Shown: piece after piece, positions 21,712 to 29,487 of the stretch
Position numbering within the stretch: the first letter of the stretch is position 1
Layout: the number at the start of each line of letters is the position of its first letter
NCBI GenBank assembly: GCA_902585365.1
Contig: CACIDF010000008.1
Span: 1-35,613, forward strand
Source of the DNA: an uncultured Pelagibacteraceae bacterium
GTDB lineage: Bacteria; Pseudomonadota; Alphaproteobacteria; Pelagibacterales; Pelagibacteraceae
Direction: 5' to 3'
Length of the DNA: 35,613 bases
Notes under the pieces: model-generated
Database searches by the model: none
What the model was told of the DNA's origin: nothing
What the model saw: the letters and a program-made list of their open reading frames with translations, nothing else
Made by a program: the position numbers and the translations under genes

Positions 21712-22485
21712 TTAGCTTGTTGCAAGCATTTTTTTGATAGATGCGATAGCTTTTGCAGGATTAAGACCCTTTGGACAAGCATTTGTACAGTTCATGATTG
21801 TATGACACCTATATAGTTTTAGTTCATCAGCTACTTTTTTTAATCTTGCTTTTCTATCTTCATCTCTTGAGTCTATTATCCATCTATAGGCTTGAAGTAA
21901 AACAGCTGGACCAAGATATTTATCTCCGTTCCACCAATAACTAGGGCATGATGTGGAACAACATGCGCACATAATACATTCATAAAGTCCATCAAGTTTA
22001 GCTCTATCTTCTTTGGATTGTAAGTTCTCGGTTTTGCTAGAATCGTTTGAATTTTTTAGCCAAGGTTCCACAGACTCATATTGTTTATAAAGTGAACTTA
22101 AATCTCCAATAAGATCTTTTAACACTTTTAAATGAGGGAGAGGGTAAATATTAATATCTCCTTTAATCTCTGAATGAGGTTTAGTGCAAGCTAAACCATT
22201 TTTTCCATCCATATTCATTGCGCAAGAACCACAAACTCCATGTGCACATGATCTTCTATAGGCGATAGTAGGATCAATTTCATTTTTTATTTTATTTAGT
22301 AAATCTAAGACTTTTGATGGACAATTATCCATATCCACTTCGTAAGTATCAATTCTTGGGTTTTCACCAGTTGAGGGATCCCATCTATAAATATTAACTT
22401 TTCTTATATTCTTAGAACCTGTTGTGTCTTTAAAATATTTGCCCTTTTGGATTTTTGAATTCTTAGGCAAATTTATTTGAACCAT
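21712..22485 (-). CDS. sdhB: Succinate dehydrogenase iron-sulfur subunit
   Basis: Carries electrons from the flavin of SdhA through three iron-sulfur clusters to ubiquinone. All ligands are present: [2Fe-2S] Cys80, Cys85, Cys88 and Cys100; [4Fe-4S] Cys170, Cys173, Cys176 and Cys237; [3Fe-4S] Cys180, Cys227 and Cys233, with the same spacing as in E. coli SdhB. The 257 residues are slightly longer than E. coli (238) because of N-terminal and middle insertions. The ATG overlaps the sdhA stop by one base (TGATG). An AGGAAAGAG stretch inside the end of sdhA may serve as the ribosome binding site. Confidence 0.97.
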
Positions 22486-24260
22486 CAGTAGACTCTTTCC
22501 TGTGGCGGGAAATATTGCACATCATTAGTTAGTGTTGATCTGTGAACTGGTCTATAATCTATTTTTGTTTTCTTACCTTCACACCAAGATAAAGTATGTT
22601 GCATGTATTTTTCATCGTCTCTCTTAGGATAATCTTCTCTAGCATGAGCACCTCTGCTCTCCTTTCTATAATATGCTGAGTCCATTGTTGTTATTGCTTG
22701 TCTTATTAAGTTATCAAACTCTAAGGTTTCAACTAAATCAGTATTAAAAATTAAAGATTTATCTTTCACTGATAAATTTTCCATACCTTCAAATGGTTTT
22801 CTTATTTGCTCTATGCCTTCTTTTAAAGTTTTTTCTGTTCTAAAAACGGCACACTTTGACTGCATTGTTTTTTGCATAGATAATCTTAAATCTGCAGTAC
22901 TGTTTGAACCGCTAGAATTTCTAAGCTTATCAAATCTTGATAAACATTTATCAGTTTCAGAATCTGGAATATCTTCATGTGGTTGTCCAGGTTTTATTAA
23001 TTCGGATGCTCTTTTTGCTGCAGCTCTTCCAAAAACAACTAAATCAATTAATGAATTAGATCCTAATCTATTTGCTCCATGAACAGATACACATGCAGCC
23101 TCACCAATGGCCATTAATCCCGGAACTGTTTTTTCAGAACCATTTAGTGTTAGCACTTCAGCTTTATAATTTGTAGGTATACCCCCCATGTTATAATGAA
23201 CAGTTGGTACTACTGGTATTGGTTCTTTAGTAACATCAACGTTAGCGAACAACTTCGAAGACTCTGATATGCCTGGTAATCTCTCTTCGATAACATTTTT
23301 ATCTAGGTGATCTAAATGTAAGTGAACGTGATCTTTATCTTTACCAACTCCTCTGCCCTCATTTATTTCAACTGCAATAGATCTGCTCACCACATCTCTT
23401 GATGCTAAGTCCTTAGCTTTAGGAGCATATCTCTCCATAAATCTTTCACCTTTAGAGTTTACAAGATATCCACCTTCACCTCTTACACCCTCAGATATTA
23501 AAGTGCCATGACCATAGATACCTGTTGGATGAAATTGAACAAATTCCATATCTTGTAAAGGCAAACCTGCTCTTAATACCATTGCATTCCCATCACCAGT
23601 ACAAGTATGTGCTGAAGTAGCTGAATAGTATATTTTTCCATAACCACCTGTTGCAATAATTGTTATATGAGACCTAAACCTATGAATTGTGCCATCATTT
23701 AAATTCCAAGCAACCAAACCTTTGCACTCACCATTTTTCATTAAAAGATCTAATGCAAAATACTCAATAAAAAATTCTGTATTGTGTTTCAAAGCTTGTC
23801 CATACAATGTATGTAAAATTGCATGGCCAGTTCTATCTGCTGCTGCACAAGTTCTTTGTACTGGTTCGTTACCATAGTTTTTTGTCATTCCACCAAAAGG
23901 TCTTTGGTAAATTTTGCCATCATCTGTTCTGCTAAAAGGAACACCATATTTTTCTAATTCCAAAACTGCTCGAGGAGCTTCTTTACACAAGTACTCTATA
24001 CAATCCTGATCACCCAACCAATCTGCACCTTTAACTGTATCATACATATGCCAACGCCAATCATCTTCACCCATATTACCTAATGCTGCAGAAATTCCAC
24101 CTTGGGCAGCAGATGTATGGCTTCTAGTTGGAAAAACTTTTGATATACAAGCTGTCTTAAGCCCAGCTTCACTTAACCCTACAGCAGCTCTCAAGCCTGA
24201 ACCTCCAGCACCTAACACAACTACATCATATTCGTGATCAATAATTTTATAAGATTTCAT
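22485..24260 (-). CDS. sdhA: Succinate dehydrogenase flavoprotein subunit
   Basis: Oxidises succinate to fumarate on covalently bound FAD. The 591 residues contain the FAD-binding [10 protein letters not shown] at 18-27, the flavinylated histidine at 48 in [12 protein letters not shown], the active-site region [20 protein letters not shown], and [16 protein letters not shown] further on. Length is essentially that of E. coli SdhA (588). It lies two bases after sdhD and overlaps sdhB by one base. Sequence and context agree; quinol-fumarate reductase is unlikely given the sdhCDAB order and the aerobic TCA neighbours. Confidence 0.97.
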
Positions 24261-24262
24261 AA

Positions 24263-24586
24263 TTATAAATATATAATAGTAATTATTGTAAATAGAGGGA
24301 TAATTAAAGATGACAAAAAAACACCCAAATTTGCGTATTTTTTTGCATTTTCCTGCTTTATATAGTCCTCAAAAATCTCACTAATACTGAGAGCTGAATA
24401 AAAAAACATGCTAACTATGAAAATTGAAAATAATATTTTAGATGGCTGTGAGGTAAAGAAATTAACTACCTCGTCATAACTTCCATTAAATATTGTAACA
24501 ATATTCATTAAAAACCAAATCATAAAAGGAACCATTATTACTGAACTGATTTTTTGGAATAACCATTTTTTTGTAGCTTGAAGCAT
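24263..24586 (-). CDS. sdhD: Succinate dehydrogenase membrane anchor subunit D, without heme-ligand histidine
   Basis: With SdhC it anchors SdhAB in the inner membrane and forms the ubiquinone site. The 107 residues predict three membrane helices (about 12-33, 50-70, 85-107). Identification rests on its place between sdhC and sdhA, on size, and on the SEIFEDYIK segment after helix two, which corresponds to the LTDYVK segment of E. coli SdhD with its Asp-Tyr quinone-site pair (here Asp74-Tyr75). The oddity is the heme ligand: E. coli His71 aligns without gaps to Tyr63 (codon TAT at 24398-24400), and the protein contains no histidine at all. Its ATG overlaps the sdhC stop (TAATG). Confidence 0.88.
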
Positions 24587-24969
24587 TAAATTAGAACTCC
24601 ACTTAGAAGGTATAAAGCTATTGTTAATATAAAAGAGCCTAAAATCACAATGACACCTGTTATTTTTGTAGTTCTCAATTCAAAACCATAACCCATGTCC
24701 CAGAACCAATGTCTGATTTCACTTAAAATCTGAAACAAATAGGACCAAATAAATCCAATAATAAAAAACTTACCCACCATCGATTCTGAAAATTTTTTAA
24801 AGTATTGATAACTTTCTGAGCCAAATATTAAACTAATCACCCAAAAACAAACAAGTATTAATAATAAATAATTTATCACTCCTGTTATTCTGTGAGAAAT
24901 TGAAACAAGTGATGAAATATGCCAGTTATAAACTTGTATGTGTGGAGATATAGGATTGTTATCTTTCAT
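24586..24969 (-). CDS. sdhC: Succinate dehydrogenase cytochrome b subunit C, heme ligand replaced
   Basis: Membrane subunit of complex II that helps bind ubiquinone and normally heme b. The 127 residues start with the family signature SPHIQVYNW and SISHRITG, where Ser23 and Arg27 correspond to the E. coli quinone-site residues Ser27 and Arg31. Three helices follow (about 27-50, 65-88, 103-127). The second ends in EIRHWFWDMGY, matching GIRHMMMDFGY of E. coli without gaps. At the position of the axial heme histidine (E. coli His84) there is Gln80 (CAG codon, 24730-24732). Thus the usual ligand is missing here as well as in SdhD. Translation has a strong Shine-Dalgarno sequence inside the end of asd. 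Confidence 0.93.
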   Translation of the reverse strand: MKDNNPISPHIQVYNWHISSLVSISHRITGVINYLLLILVCFWVISLIFGSESYQYFKKFSESMVGKFFIIGFIWSYLFQILSEIRHWFWDMGYGFELRTTKITGVIVILGSFILTIALYLLSGVLI

Positions 24970-24971
24970 AA

Positions 24972-25964
24972 TTACTCCTTAATGTATGCCTCCGCAATTT
25001 CCACTGAATTTAAAGCCGCCCCTCTTAATAAATTGTCTGAAACTATCCACATGTTAATGGCATTTTTTTTACTATTATCTTTTCTAATTCTTGAAATAAA
25101 AGTTTCATTTTTTCCTTCAGCTTCTACTGGGGTAATATATCCTCCATCATTCCTATCATCAATTACTTTACAACCAGGTGATTGATTTAAAATTTCTATA
25201 ACCTTATCAATTGGTGCCTCATTCTCAAATTCAACGTTAACAGACTCAGCATGAGATACTAAAACAGGGATTCTAACACACGTTGCTGTGATATCTATAT
25301 TCGAACCTAAAATTTTATTAGACTCTTGTATCATTTTGATTTCCTCTTTCGTATATCCATCTGTACTAAATTTATCTATATGCGGTATAGCATTAAATGC
25401 TATTTGTTTAGTAAAATTCTCACTTTTAATTTCTTTAGACTCAAGAGCTTTCTTTGTTTGATTTAACAGCTCATCCATAGGTTTTTTTCCAGCACCTGAT
25501 GTGGACTGGTAAGTTGATATTACCAATCTTTTTATTTTAAAATTATCATTCAAATTTTTTAAAACTATTACCAATTGAGCAGTTGAACAGTTTGGATTAG
25601 CTAAAATATTTTTTTTCATATTTTTTATTTCTTTAGAATTGACTTGAGGAACAATTAAAGGCACATCTGGATCCATTCTAAAATAGCTTGAATTATCTAT
25701 AACTACTGTATGCTTTGCTGCTGCAGGAACATATTTTTCTGAAATTTTTCCACCTGCAGAAAAAAATGTAATATCAGCTTTTGAGAAATCAAAATTTTCT
25801 AGGTCGCTTACTTCAATTTCACTGTCTTTAAATTTAATTTTTACACCTGAGCTTTTAGCAGATGCTAGAAGGTATAGATTAGTCACTGAAAAGTTTTTTC
25901 TTTCCAGAACTTCTATAATTTTTCTGCCAACATTTCCTGTTGCTCCTACAATCGCTATATTCAT
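24972..25964 (-). CDS. asd: Aspartate-semialdehyde dehydrogenase
   Basis: Reduces aspartyl phosphate to aspartate semialdehyde, the branch point to lysine, diaminopimelate, threonine and methionine. The 330 residues show the NADP-binding GATGNVG at 7-13, SAGGKISEKYVPAAA, the catalytic cysteine at 126 in NPNCSTAQ, and STSGAGKKPMDEL of the substrate domain. In many alphaproteobacteria asd directly follows leuB; here the DMSP genes separate them. It starts 15 bases after dmdA and ends two bases before sdhC, and its last codons hold the sdhC ribosome binding site. Confidence 0.96.
   Translation of the reverse strand: MNIAIVGATGNVGRKIIEVLERKNFSVTNLYLLASAKSSGVKIKFKDSEIEVSDLENFDFSKADITFFSAGGKISEKYVPAAAKHTVVIDNSSYFRMDPDVPLIVPQVNSKEIKNMKKNILANPNCSTAQLVIVLKNLNDNFKIKRLVISTYQSTSGAGKKPMDELLNQTKKALESKEIKSENFTKQIAFNAIPHIDKFSTDGYTKEEIKMIQESNKILGSNIDITATCVRIPVLVSHAESVNVEFENEAPIDKVIEILNQSPGCKVIDDRNDGGYITPVEAEGKNETFISRIRKDNSKKNAINMWIVSDNLLRGAALNSVEIAEAYIKE
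24975..24980 (-). promoter_or_regulatory. Strong Shine-Dalgarno site of sdhC
   Basis: The - strand reads AAGGAG five bases before the sdhC ATG, formed by the final Lys and Glu codons of asd. Most genes in this window have no recognisable Shine-Dalgarno sequence, so this one stands out. It suggests efficient independent initiation at the head of sdhCDAB. Confidence 0.7.
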
Positions 25965-25973
25965 GTTGATTAA

Positions 25974-26001
25974 CTTATACTAAATGAAAGGTAAATCGCA
26001 A
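25974..26001 (-). promoter_or_regulatory. Candidate promoter upstream of asd, within the dmdA end
   Basis: The - strand contains TTGCGA (25996-26001), 16 bases, TATAAG (25974-25979). This would start RNA only one to three bases before the asd ATG. It could let asd-sdh be expressed independently of the DMSP genes. Each hexamer is a partial match and the region is AT-rich, so confidence is low. Confidence 0.25.
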
Positions 26002-27089
26002 ACTGTTCCTAGAAATATTTTCTCATTGATATCAATTTTAAATTGATGTTTTGCATCCCAATAGGGTTTATTAATCATTGCAATTCCAATCACTTTTTTA
26101 AATGTTGGAGAATATGCGGCAGACCTAACGTGACCAACGATATTATTATTATCATCATATAATGTTTTTTCACAGTACATATCAATTTTATTATGATCAA
26201 TCTTAACACCCATTAATTTTCTTTTTATTCCATTTTGCTTAATTTGTTTCAATCTTTCTTTACCCAAGAAATTTACATCCGATTCTAAATTCACAAATTT
26301 ATCAAAATTTGCCTCAAATGGATTGTCTCTATTATCAAAATCATTACCATAAGATAATAAAGCAGATTCTATTCTTTCAATTAAATTTGGACATCCTGCT
26401 TTAACATTAAATTCTTTACCGTATTCAAACAAATAGTCATATAAATCTTGACCAGCTTTATCATCTTCAACATATATTTCAAAACCGCTTTGTTTAGACC
26501 ATCCAGATCTAGCAATAAAATATTTTTTTCCTTTGAATTCGTAATATTTAAAATTAAAAAATTTTAATTGTCTAATTTCTTCACCAAATATTTTTGCCAA
26601 AAGATTATCAGACAAAGGTCCTTGGACAGCTAAAATATTTACGTTTGGTTCAGTAATCTCCACTTCAAATTTGTATCCGGCAGCTAAACCTTTTGCAAAA
26701 AATATTACATCTGAGTCGGCTATTGAAAGCCACCATTTATCATCTGCAAGTTTATTTATAATTGGATCATTTACTAAATTTCCTTGATCGTCAATTAAAG
26801 GTGCATAATAACATTTTCCAACTTTTGAATTCGATAAATCTCTACACGTCATTAGTTGAACTAATTTTGCAGAGTCTTTCCCAGTAATTTGTACCTGTCT
26901 TTCTGCAGCCACATCCCATACTTGCACAAATTTCTTAAGATGCTCATAATCAGCTTCTACCGACTTAAAAGAGACCGGTAGTAGCATGTGATTGTAAACT
27001 GTATAACCACTCACCCCATGAGCTTCTATTCTATCAGTGTAAGGTGTGCTTCTTAATCTTCTTGATTTTATAATTGAAAAGTTTTTCAT
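25980..27089 (-). CDS. dmdA: Dimethylsulfoniopropionate (DMSP) demethylase
   Basis: Transfers a methyl group from DMSP to tetrahydrofolate, giving methylmercaptopropionate and methyl-THF. It is the first step of DMSP use as a carbon and reduced-sulfur source. The protein has the glycine-cleavage T-protein fold: a folate-binding domain over about the first 270 residues and a C-terminal barrel from about 285. I assign DmdA rather than GcvT from strong resemblance to remembered Pelagibacter DmdA in [54 protein letters not shown] and the end VCDLPFI, from identical length (369), and from the adjoining dmdB/dmdC-like genes. Its ATG overlaps the hydrolase stop by four bases (ATGA). It is the last gene of the DMSP set. 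Confidence 0.93.
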
Positions 27090-27862
27090 TTTTTTAAAAA
27101 TTCTGCTACCTTTTCCCTCATTTCAAAAGCTTTTTCAAACATAATCATATGTCCACAATCATTTAAAATCTCAGTTTTTGAGTTTTTTATTAAATTAGCA
27201 AATTTTTTTCCATTTTCAGTTGGCACCATTTTATCAAGTTCTCCAAAAATAAGAATTGTTGGACACTCAATACTTGTCGATGCATCTTTTCCGTTTTTAT
27301 AATTATTACAAGCTTTAAGATCTACAGATAAAATTTCCTTAACTTCTCTTGATGAGTTGATAATTTTTTCTACAGGGTTTCCGCCAATAAATTTTTTTGA
27401 TCCCTCGTAACCCCATTTCATCATCAGATGAACTGCTTTTTTATCACCAGACTCAGCTAAATCAATCAAATCTTGATTGACTGGCATTTTATAAGACCCA
27501 GCCAACAATACTAATTTAGAAATATGATTTTTATATTTTGAACCATATTCTATCGCCTCAAGGCACCCTTGCGAATGACCAATTATTGATACTTTTTCAA
27601 CATTTATTTCATTTCTTACATTTTCTAACCAGTCTGCAATTTTTTCTATGCTCGTTAGACATGGTCCATCTGATTTTCCATGGCCAGGTAAATCAATTGC
27701 TAAAATGTTAAAATTTTTATTTGACAAATATTGTTCGGTTAAAGACCAAACAATATGTGTCAACCCACTACCATGAAGCAAAAAAATTGTTTCTTTATTT
27801 TTATCAAAATCTTTACCTGCATCGGAGGCAAAGACCTGCTTATTATCTACTTTAAGAATCAA
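27086..27862 (-). CDS. Alpha/beta hydrolase of the DMSP cluster, substrate unknown
   Basis: An alpha/beta-hydrolase-fold enzyme of 258 residues, with an oxyanion loop LLHGSGLTH (His30-Gly31), nucleophile elbow GHSQGC with Ser97, acid Asp210 in FGELDKMVP, and His238 in [10 protein letters not shown]. The triad is complete, so it should be active. It has no signal peptide and should be cytoplasmic. It starts with TTG overlapping the dmdB stop (TTGA, four bases) and ends overlapping dmdA (ATGA), so it is translationally locked into the DMSP operon. No other in-frame start exists before the conserved domain. A thioesterase or C-C/ester hydrolase role on a methylmercaptopropionate-derived CoA ester is conceivable. 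That is inference from context only; the fold does not fix the substrate. Confidence 0.85.
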
Positions 27863-29487
27863 ATAAGTTCCTTGGCTTTTTTTCTTAGCTCAAATTTTTG
27901 AATTTTTCCTGTTGAAGTTTTTGGTAATTCACAAAATGCTACTTTTTTTGGTATTTTAAAACCAGCTAAAGTCTCTCTACAAAAATCAATTAATTCTTTT
28001 TCTGATACATCTTTATCTTGCACTTTCTCAATAAAAGCACAAGGAACCTCTCCCCATTTTTCATCCGGTTTTGCAACTACTGCAGCTATCGAAACAGATG
28101 GATGTTTTGCTAAGGTATTTTCAATTTCTATAGATGAAATATTTTCTCCTCCTGAAATAATTATATCCTTAGATCTATCTTTAATTTTAATATATCCATC
28201 AGGATTAACTACAGCCAAATCCCCAGAGTGAAACCAACCATGTGACATTGCTTTATCTGTTGCATCTTTATCTTTAAAGTAACCTTTCATAACTACGTTA
28301 CCTTTAATCATTATCTCACCAATGGTTTTTGCATCTTTAGGAACGGGTTTCATAGACTCGGGGTCCATTACCATTACATCCTCTGTATTAGGATATCTAA
28401 CACCTTGTCTTGCTTTAATTTCATTTTTCTTGTCTTCATCAAAAGAATTCCAATTCTCATTCCATGCACATTGTAAAATATGTCCGTATGTTTCTGTTAG
28501 TCCATAAACATGCATTACTTCAAAACCAAGTGCTTCCATTTTTTTAAATATAATACTTGGTGGCGGTGCTCCAGCTGTAAGAACATAAACTTTATGTGTA
28601 AGTTTTTTTCTATCACTTTCTGATGCACCAGTTATCATATTTAAAACTATTGGTGCTCCACCAAAATGTGTAATTTCATGCTTAATAATTAACTCAAAAA
28701 TTTTTTTTATATCAATGGCTCTTAAACAAATTGTTCTGCCGTTTAGCATCGGGATTGTCCAGGGATATCCCCAACCATTGCAGTGAAACATTGGTACGAC
28801 TGTTAAAAAATTTAATCTATTTGGCATGTTCCATGCAATAGCACTTCCTGTAGACATTAAATAAGAACCTCTATGGTGATACACAACTCCTTTTGGATTT
28901 CCTGTCGTGCCTGAAGTATAACTTAAAGATATTGCTTGCCATTCATCTTTTGGTCTCTTCCAGATGAATGTTTCGTCACCAGTATTCAGGAATTCTTCAT
29001 ATTCTTTTTCGCCAATTTTTTTTAATAAAGATTGATCAGCAAATTTATCATGAATATCAATTATTAAAGGTTTATTTTTGGATAATTCCAACGCTTTTTT
29101 TAAAACTGAATGTAGTTGTCGATCAACAATTAATACTTTTGCTTCGCTATGATCAATAATATATGCAACTGTCTTAGCATCTAATCTTGTGTTTATAGTA
29201 TTTAGAACTGCTCCAGTCATTGGTACAGAATAATGAGCCTCAAAAATTTCAGGTGTATTAAAAGCCATGACTGAAACTGTATCCCCCTCCTTAATACCAA
29301 TTTTTTCTAGTGCACTCGCAAATTTGATGCATCTCATATAAATTTGTTCCCAGGTGTAAGACCTATCTTCATAAATTAAAGCTTCATAATCTGGATAGAT
29401 ATCTTTTGCTCTTTCGAGGAAACTTAATGGAGTTAATGGAACAAAATTTGCGTTATTTTTGTCTAAGTTATTATCGTAATGACTCAT
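27859..29487 (-). CDS. dmdB: Methylmercaptopropionate-CoA ligase (DmdB-type acyl-CoA synthetase)
   Basis: An AMP-forming acyl-CoA synthetase that would activate methylmercaptopropionate, the DmdA product, to its CoA thioester. The 542 residues contain the nucleotide loop SYTSGTTGNPKG (189-200), the VYGLTETYG region, the hinge-side HSGDLAVVNPDGYIKIKDRS, and the C-terminal adenylation lysine Lys528 in TSTGKIQK. The fold alone would only say medium-chain acyl-CoA synthetase; the DmdB assignment comes from the position between a DmdC-type dehydrogenase and DmdA. It is one base after dmdC and overlaps the hydrolase. Some DmdB enzymes also use other short-chain acids, so a broader role is possible. 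Confidence 0.87.
   Translation of the reverse strand: MSHYDNNLDKNNANFVPLTPLSFLERAKDIYPDYEALIYEDRSYTWEQIYMRCIKFASALEKIGIKEGDTVSVMAFNTPEIFEAHYSVPMTGAVLNTINTRLDAKTVAYIIDHSEAKVLIVDRQLHSVLKKALELSKNKPLIIDIHDKFADQSLLKKIGEKEYEEFLNTGDETFIWKRPKDEWQAISLSYTSGTTGNPKGVVYHHRGSYLMSTGSAIAWNMPNRLNFLTVVPMFHCNGWGYPWTIPMLNGRTICLRAIDIKKIFELIIKHEITHFGGAPIVLNMITGASESDRKKLTHKVYVLTAGAPPPSIIFKKMEALGFEVMHVYGLTETYGHILQCAWNENWNSFDEDKKNEIKARQGVRYPNTEDVMVMDPESMKPVPKDAKTIGEIMIKGNVVMKGYFKDKDATDKAMSHGWFHSGDLAVVNPDGYIKIKDRSKDIIISGGENISSIEIENTLAKHPSVSIAAVVAKPDEKWGEVPCAFIEKVQDKDVSEKELIDFCRETLAGFKIPKKVAFCELPKTSTGKIQKFELRKKAKELI

Follow-up and report, generated by a model that had tools for sequence, protein, structure and literature searches.

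The role of heme b in complex II has been described as "highly ambiguous" (PMC3290573, available excerpts) and as uncertain (PMC13066397, available excerpts), the discussion of the latter stating that, judging from Escherichia coli mutants, the heme is not essential. In the E. coli enzyme, SdhD Arg20 holds the distal heme propionate, and this residue and SdhC Arg31 are equivalent across the pseudo-twofold axis of the heme (excerpts of PMC3290573). Heme-free type-C enzymes are already known: in complex II of Saccharomyces cerevisiae (9QDL/9QDM), Sdh4 Tyr108 stands in place of the SdhD-side histidine, while Glu112, four residues past this Tyr, replaces a Gly and takes over the heme-propionate contact, to Sdh3 Arg97, and the anchor heme is likewise reported absent from the Tetrahymena and Perkinsus enzymes (excerpts of PMC13066397). 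For SAR11, no account of heme in complex II was found among the matches listed in the open-licence literature, the available portions of PMC11069385 and PMC2864753 being silent on it.

The window, i.e. the whole stretch of 35,613 nucleotides analyzed here, is contig 8 of a 0.90-Mb genome that is 74% complete. It carries, on the minus strand, the genes sdhC-sdhD-sdhA-sdhB in this order, the product of each scoring above the cut-off of at least one NCBIfam model (113.8 bits for SdhC against TIGR02970, cut-off 52.3; 60 bits for SdhD against TIGR02968, cut-off 41.8). The features are as follows.

24586..24969, minus strand: sdhC, cytochrome b556 anchor subunit with no axial His, 127 aa (open reading frame and NCBIfam)
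24263..24586, minus strand: sdhD, membrane anchor subunit with zero histidines, 107 aa (open reading frame, NCBIfam and models)
22485..24260, minus strand: sdhA, flavoprotein subunit (TIGR01816, 952.1 bits against a cut-off of 727.35)
21712..22485, minus strand: sdhB, iron-sulfur subunit (open reading frame and NCBIfam, above cut-off)
24730..24732, minus strand: SdhC Gln80 (CAG), aligned with the SdhC heme ligand of E. coli, His84
24718..24720, minus strand: SdhC Glu84 (GAA), where HxxxG has its conserved glycine (Gly88 in E. coli), a proposed heme-propionate substitute by analogy with PMC13066397
24398..24400, minus strand: SdhD Tyr63 (TAT), aligned with the SdhD heme ligand of E. coli, His71
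24386..24388, minus strand: SdhD Ser67, replacing the conserved glycine of the second HxxxG motif (Gly75 in E. coli)
24551..24553, minus strand: SdhD Lys12 (AAA), at E. coli Arg20
24889..24903, minus strand: SdhC Ser23-Arg27, kept at the quinone site (Ser27 and Arg31 in E. coli)
24362..24367, minus strand: SdhD Asp74-Tyr75, kept at the quinone site (Asp82-Tyr83 in E. coli)

Beside sdh, the region 24972-29487 presumably encodes an aspartate-semialdehyde dehydrogenase, a GcvT-like protein resembling the DMSP demethylase DmdA, an alpha/beta hydrolase and an acyl-CoA ligase; the first three of these genes were found in the same order in the related genome G066.

The first-pass annotation had placed Gln80 and Tyr63 at the two axial ligand positions, and the codons CAG and TAT as well as independent alignments bore this out. 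In SdhC, an ungapped stretch around IRHxxWD, FQILSEIRHWFWDM against avian SdhC YHTWNGIRHLVWDM, put Gln80 on the avian axial His and Glu84 on a Gly, and the predicted model (pLDDT 81) could be superimposed on E. coli 2wu2_C with Z 14.4 and rmsd 1.9 over 111 aligned residues. In SdhD, the profile match to E. coli 1nek_D was gapless, and structural alignment of the model (pLDDT 92) with E. coli 2wdq_D (Z 13.1, rmsd 2.0, 105 aligned) laid residues 3-107 on E. coli SdhD 11-115 with an offset of 8 throughout. Searching solved chains with the window's SdhD by phmmer returned chance matches only (E 0.18 and worse), so that profile A1 was needed; Foldseek with the SdhD model gave nothing at E <=0.001, with E. 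coli and Mycobacterium SdhD at the top of its list (E 0.007-0.018, probability 1.00). According to the titles of structures 2wu2 (SdhC His84Met) and 2wu5 (SdhD His71Met), Gln80 and Tyr63 correspond to the positions mutated therein. Three further claims also stood: the translation of SdhD contains no histidine, the quinone-site residues listed above are present, and the cluster cysteines of SdhB, together with the His of CH(T/S)IMNC, were seen by eye to be intact in the translation. We consider that this locus encodes a working type-C succinate:ubiquinone oxidoreductase that would lack heme b, with a probability of about 0.8 for heme absence and activity together.

To describe the distribution of ligand loss, the residues at SdhC 84 and SdhD 71 (E. 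coli numbering) are written as a pair. In the PF01127 search, 24 of 197 genomes had no match. In genus g1, that of the window, which we infer to be Pelagibacter, both ligands were absent from all 53 genomes read, a part of the g1 genomes with a match, Gln/Phe occurring in 42 and Gln/Tyr in 11. The loci nearly identical to that of the window are assigned to Pelagibacteraceae, with Candidatus Pelagibacter ubique strain SCGC AAA795-F16 among them, and G066 has Gln/Phe. Other genera of the same family were His/His (g5, g6 and g7, with 2, 2 and 4 genomes read) or intermediate: g8 (10 read of 16 matching) had SdhC His in nine and Gln in one, with SdhD Phe in 10 of 10, and the two g9 genomes read were His/Phe and Gln/Phe. 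A second family comprised g3 with His/His (four genomes read, one of them twice), g2 (10 read) and g4 (one read) with Tyr/His, and g10 (one read) with Asn/His; further Pelagibacterales, the Candidatus Fonsibacter record L159 among them, likewise kept His/His. Among 80 named loci, a nonrandom set made up of the 80 strongest matches to the SdhC of the window, Gln/Tyr was found in 36, Gln/Phe in 19, His/Phe in 18, Gln/His in four, His/His in two and Gln/Asn in one. After removal of identical pairs, the order yielded 150 distinct pairs: 94 had neither ligand (Gln/Phe 58, Gln/Tyr 35, Gln/Asn 1), 42 lacked one (His/Phe 26, Tyr/His 11, Gln/His 4, Asn/His 1), and 14 had both. This comparison of SAR11 with other Alphaproteobacteria, which the first-pass annotation had proposed, thus answers its doubt as to whether the loss is strain-specific: it is not, since it extends to every g1 genome read and is accompanied by single-ligand relatives. 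With sister genera being His/His or having lost one ligand, the sequences indicate that the loss is stepwise.

Across the class, 195 of 240 genomes matched, three of them Pelagibacterales, and 90 loci were read: 60 hand-picked among the best-scoring matches across families, and the 30 weakest, picked by eye. The 60 better-scoring loci were His/His except for one His/Tyr, and the weakest 30 contained 22 His/His, four Tyr/His, one Tyr/Val and three with no readable pair (L235 and L236 without SdhD; L260 truncated). The 87 readable pairs of other Alphaproteobacteria in this nonrandom sample were therefore His/His in 81, Tyr/His in four, His/Tyr in one and Tyr/Val in one, five of the six cases of ligand loss lying among the purposely chosen weak matches; the columns are less sure for L259, L261 and L262, the SdhD matches of which are weak (17.2, 18.7 and 9.9 bits, respectively). 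L262, from the 1.2-Mb alphaproteobacterial genome G288, has apparently lost both ligands (Tyr/Val, with Glu75), subject to its weak SdhD match. Both ligands are thus missing from one of these 87 pairs as opposed to 94 of the 150 distinct Pelagibacterales pairs, a contrast beyond what chance would give. In this nonrandom sample, a large double-loss clade was seen in Pelagibacter only.

Each axial ligand lies within an HxxxG motif, and sequence comparison revealed that the glycines are lost as well, SdhC HxxxG having become QxxxE and SdhD HxxxG (Y/F)xxxS in Pelagibacter. Both glycines are kept in His/His pairs (14/14 in Pelagibacterales, 80/81 in others), and the 120 Pelagibacterales pairs with the SdhD ligand lost have Glu at SdhC 88 in every case and Gly at SdhD 75 in none. 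In the same 120 pairs, SdhD position 20 is Lys in 119 and Arg in one; Lys also occurs there in His/His pairs with both glycines (4/14 in Pelagibacterales, 3/81 in others), and therefore Lys by itself does not indicate that heme has been lost. Counted by family, with weak matches not placed on the tree, an acidic residue at a glycine position was found in six of eight ligand-loss lineages (seven rather than eight in total if g10 and g2/g4 share one loss), namely the Pelagibacter side, g10, L254, L255, L259 with L261, and L262; the two without it are g2/g4 and L232, the latter an alphaproteobacterium of another order with Tyr71, Ser75 and Lys20 in SdhD, apparently acquired independently. Among His/His pairs, such a residue was found in 1 of 95. 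This one, L242, from outside the order, keeps both histidines, but Asp occupies each of the glycine positions and SdhD 20 is Lys; it is possible that it represents an early step or a modified heme site.

The order of these changes was examined on a tree of 67 representatives, from which the ligand, glycine and Lys20 columns were excluded and which was rooted on 13 other Alphaproteobacteria. By parsimony, Glu88, Phe71, Thr75 and Lys20 map to a single branch (SH-aLRT 100), below which SdhC His84 is retained in several lines and later gives way to Gln, in the main Pelagibacter clade and in two further instances outside it (L046; L052 with L171). The minimum numbers of changes were five for the SdhC ligand and four for the SdhD ligand, or five and six, respectively, on a quick tree of 210 rows; some inner branches are poorly supported, with 21 of 64 open. 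Single-ligand states are found in the main clade as well, with a His in SdhC for L143 and in SdhD for L108 and L142. Among the named loci, one histidine is kept there in L143 and the like on the SdhC side and, on the SdhD side, in four distinct Gln/His pairs of Pelagibacteraceae (L108, L119, L137 and L142), where His71 stands alongside SdhC Gln84/Glu88, i.e. as a ligand without a partner. His71 in these four is perhaps a reversion; Tyr to His and Gln to His each require one base change. Such single-His loci fit the heme-free reading only through drift or retention, and the drift suggested at SdhD 71, among Phe, Tyr, Asn and His, is the behavior expected of an unused ligand position.

An alternative is that heme is still bound, either through other ligands (SdhC His17, His26 or His87; SdhD Tyr63) or by packing of the pocket alone. 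Axial-ligand mutants of E. coli can retain heme, as reportedly found by Maklashina in 2001; SdhC has conserved His10, 17, 26 and 87, and at the propionate-holding positions His87 and Arg27 are still there, the charge of Arg20 being preserved in Lys12. However, His/His relatives have His26 and His87 just as often, and both residues are older than the loss; His87, which the first-pass annotation had named as a residue that might form a bis-His site with a partner chain, occurs in 14/14 His/His relatives and 93/94 double-loss pairs, and is thus not a replacement ligand. No conserved His is available in SdhD, the commonest His column being filled in 19/94 double-loss pairs, and an alternative bis-His site was accordingly rejected. 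Nor would ligation by Tyr be a general rescue, since Phe, which cannot bind iron, is the commoner state at SdhD 71 (58/94). Moreover, both pocket glycines are replaced, one of them by Glu, which should crowd the heme propionate, and the summed volume of the pocket positions has risen by about 171 cubic angstroms (permutation p 0.033, in a test that is weak and, as the defining positions are included, partly circular). Taken together, these observations make continued heme binding unlikely. SdhC His17 (24919-24921), which precedes the first long helix in the predicted model, is newly conserved, being present in 87/94 double-loss and 0/14 His/His pairs, and may have some other role.

It was also considered that SdhC and SdhD are decaying and the complex is impaired, the ligand loss being a sign of relaxed constraint on succinate oxidation. 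The ligand columns do drift among several residues, streamlined genomes lose genes, and in one relative (G030, locus L012) an in-frame TGA near the end of the SdhC match makes the protein slightly shorter. Against this, dN/dS over 18 close-relative pairs, of which 14 come from double-loss genomes, was 0.04-0.12 for SdhC and, in 17 of the pairs, 0.04-0.29 for SdhD, the remaining SdhD value being 0.77 on a dS of 0.015. The sdh frames are open in the window, and quinone-site Ser27, Arg31, Asp82 and Tyr83 are invariant save in one gapped SdhD row. Most matching genomes contain just two PF01127 matches, equivalent to one SdhC and one SdhD, so that no sign of a second, canonical copy was seen across them. 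The dN/dS values rule against decay, which we regard as very improbable. An error of sequencing or assembly in the window, which the incompleteness of the assembly might favor and which the first-pass annotation had named as a threat to its reading, is hardly credible, because codons CAG and TAT are identical in nine further records (L093-L100 and L147) and like states occur throughout the genomes read of the genus.

The reading as a functional complex II without heme b, first put forward for this single locus, therefore holds up as one drawn from sequence, both ligands being lost clade-wide with the quinone site kept, and heme b is predicted to be probably absent from Pelagibacter complex II. 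Ferrochelatase and cytochrome b were found in 12 of 12 genomes checked, and translation of the window genome's bc1 cytochrome b revealed both His-x13-His pairs to be intact, indicating that heme is synthesized and employed elsewhere in the cell; of the heme sites examined, the loss appears from these sequences to be confined to complex II. In the proposed mechanism, electrons would pass from succinate to FAD, through the three Fe-S clusters of SdhB, and to ubiquinone at the Ser/Arg/Asp/Tyr site, the heme, off this path, being dispensed with. In the ancestor of the Pelagibacter side, SdhD His71 would have changed to Phe, Gly75 to Thr and Arg20 to Lys, on the same branch as SdhC Gly88 to Glu. 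The carboxylate of SdhC Glu84 would probably replace the heme propionate by a bridge to SdhD Lys12, and bulkier side chains would take up the space left in the pocket. Once no heme was bound, SdhC His84 would have been free to become Gln, in the main clade and twice more outside by parsimony, and SdhD 71 to drift to Phe, Tyr, Asn and occasionally His. The saving of iron, which the first-pass annotation had pointed out for an ocean organism and which may have driven the loss, would by cofactor count be about one Fe of ten per complex.

As far as the searched literature shows, a bacterial double loss on the scale of a genus, the graded series leading to it and the mirrored Glu are new. SAR11 offers, in one order, a natural series with both histidines, one or none, such that the role of the heme becomes testable on natural enzymes rather than on mutants. 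If the reading is true, one of the central respiratory enzymes in cells that rank among the most abundant in the ocean does without a textbook cofactor, and the label "cytochrome b556 subunit" is misleading for Pelagibacter SdhC.

Compared with the type-C enzyme of E. coli (1NEK), the Pelagibacter complex has the same two three-helix anchors of the SdhC/SdhD families, the same fold and the same quinone-site residues, but lacks either axial His (Gln80, Tyr63), has both HxxxG glycines replaced and has Lys in place of Arg20. The type-D quinol:fumarate reductase of E. coli, FrdABCD, also has two anchors and no heme (PMC10238741, available excerpts); the Pelagibacter anchors, in contrast, match the SdhC/SdhD models, and an FrdA-type flavoprotein was rejected because SdhA passes TIGR01816 and, with 526.7 bits, falls below the cut-off of 932.7 of the FrdA model TIGR01176. 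With the yeast enzyme are shared the type-C fold, a Tyr in place of the SdhD-side His, and a Glu at the Gly four residues past a ligand position, although 42 of the 53 genomes read of the genus have Phe where the window has Tyr. The two differ in that yeast retains the SdhC-side His156 where Pelagibacter has Gln80, and in that the Glu belongs to the SdhD-side chain in yeast and to SdhC in Pelagibacter, the SdhD of which has Ser67. Since the heme site is pseudo-twofold symmetric (excerpts of PMC3290573), a Glu in SdhC would face SdhD Lys12, and by analogy Glu84 and Lys12 probably form a salt bridge that is the mirror image of the yeast arrangement. L254, L255, L259/L261 and L262, with Glu on the SdhD side and SdhC Arg31 kept (L259 and L261 having one Glu per chain), resemble yeast in this arrangement. 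We are inclined, by a small margin over even odds, to the wider view that a heme-b-free complex II is normal in Pelagibacter and was reached stepwise, with SdhC Glu84 standing in for the propionate in a mirror of the independent yeast solution, that several small-genome alphaproteobacteria have done the same by other residues, and that heme b is a structural clip repeatedly swapped for an intramembrane salt bridge.
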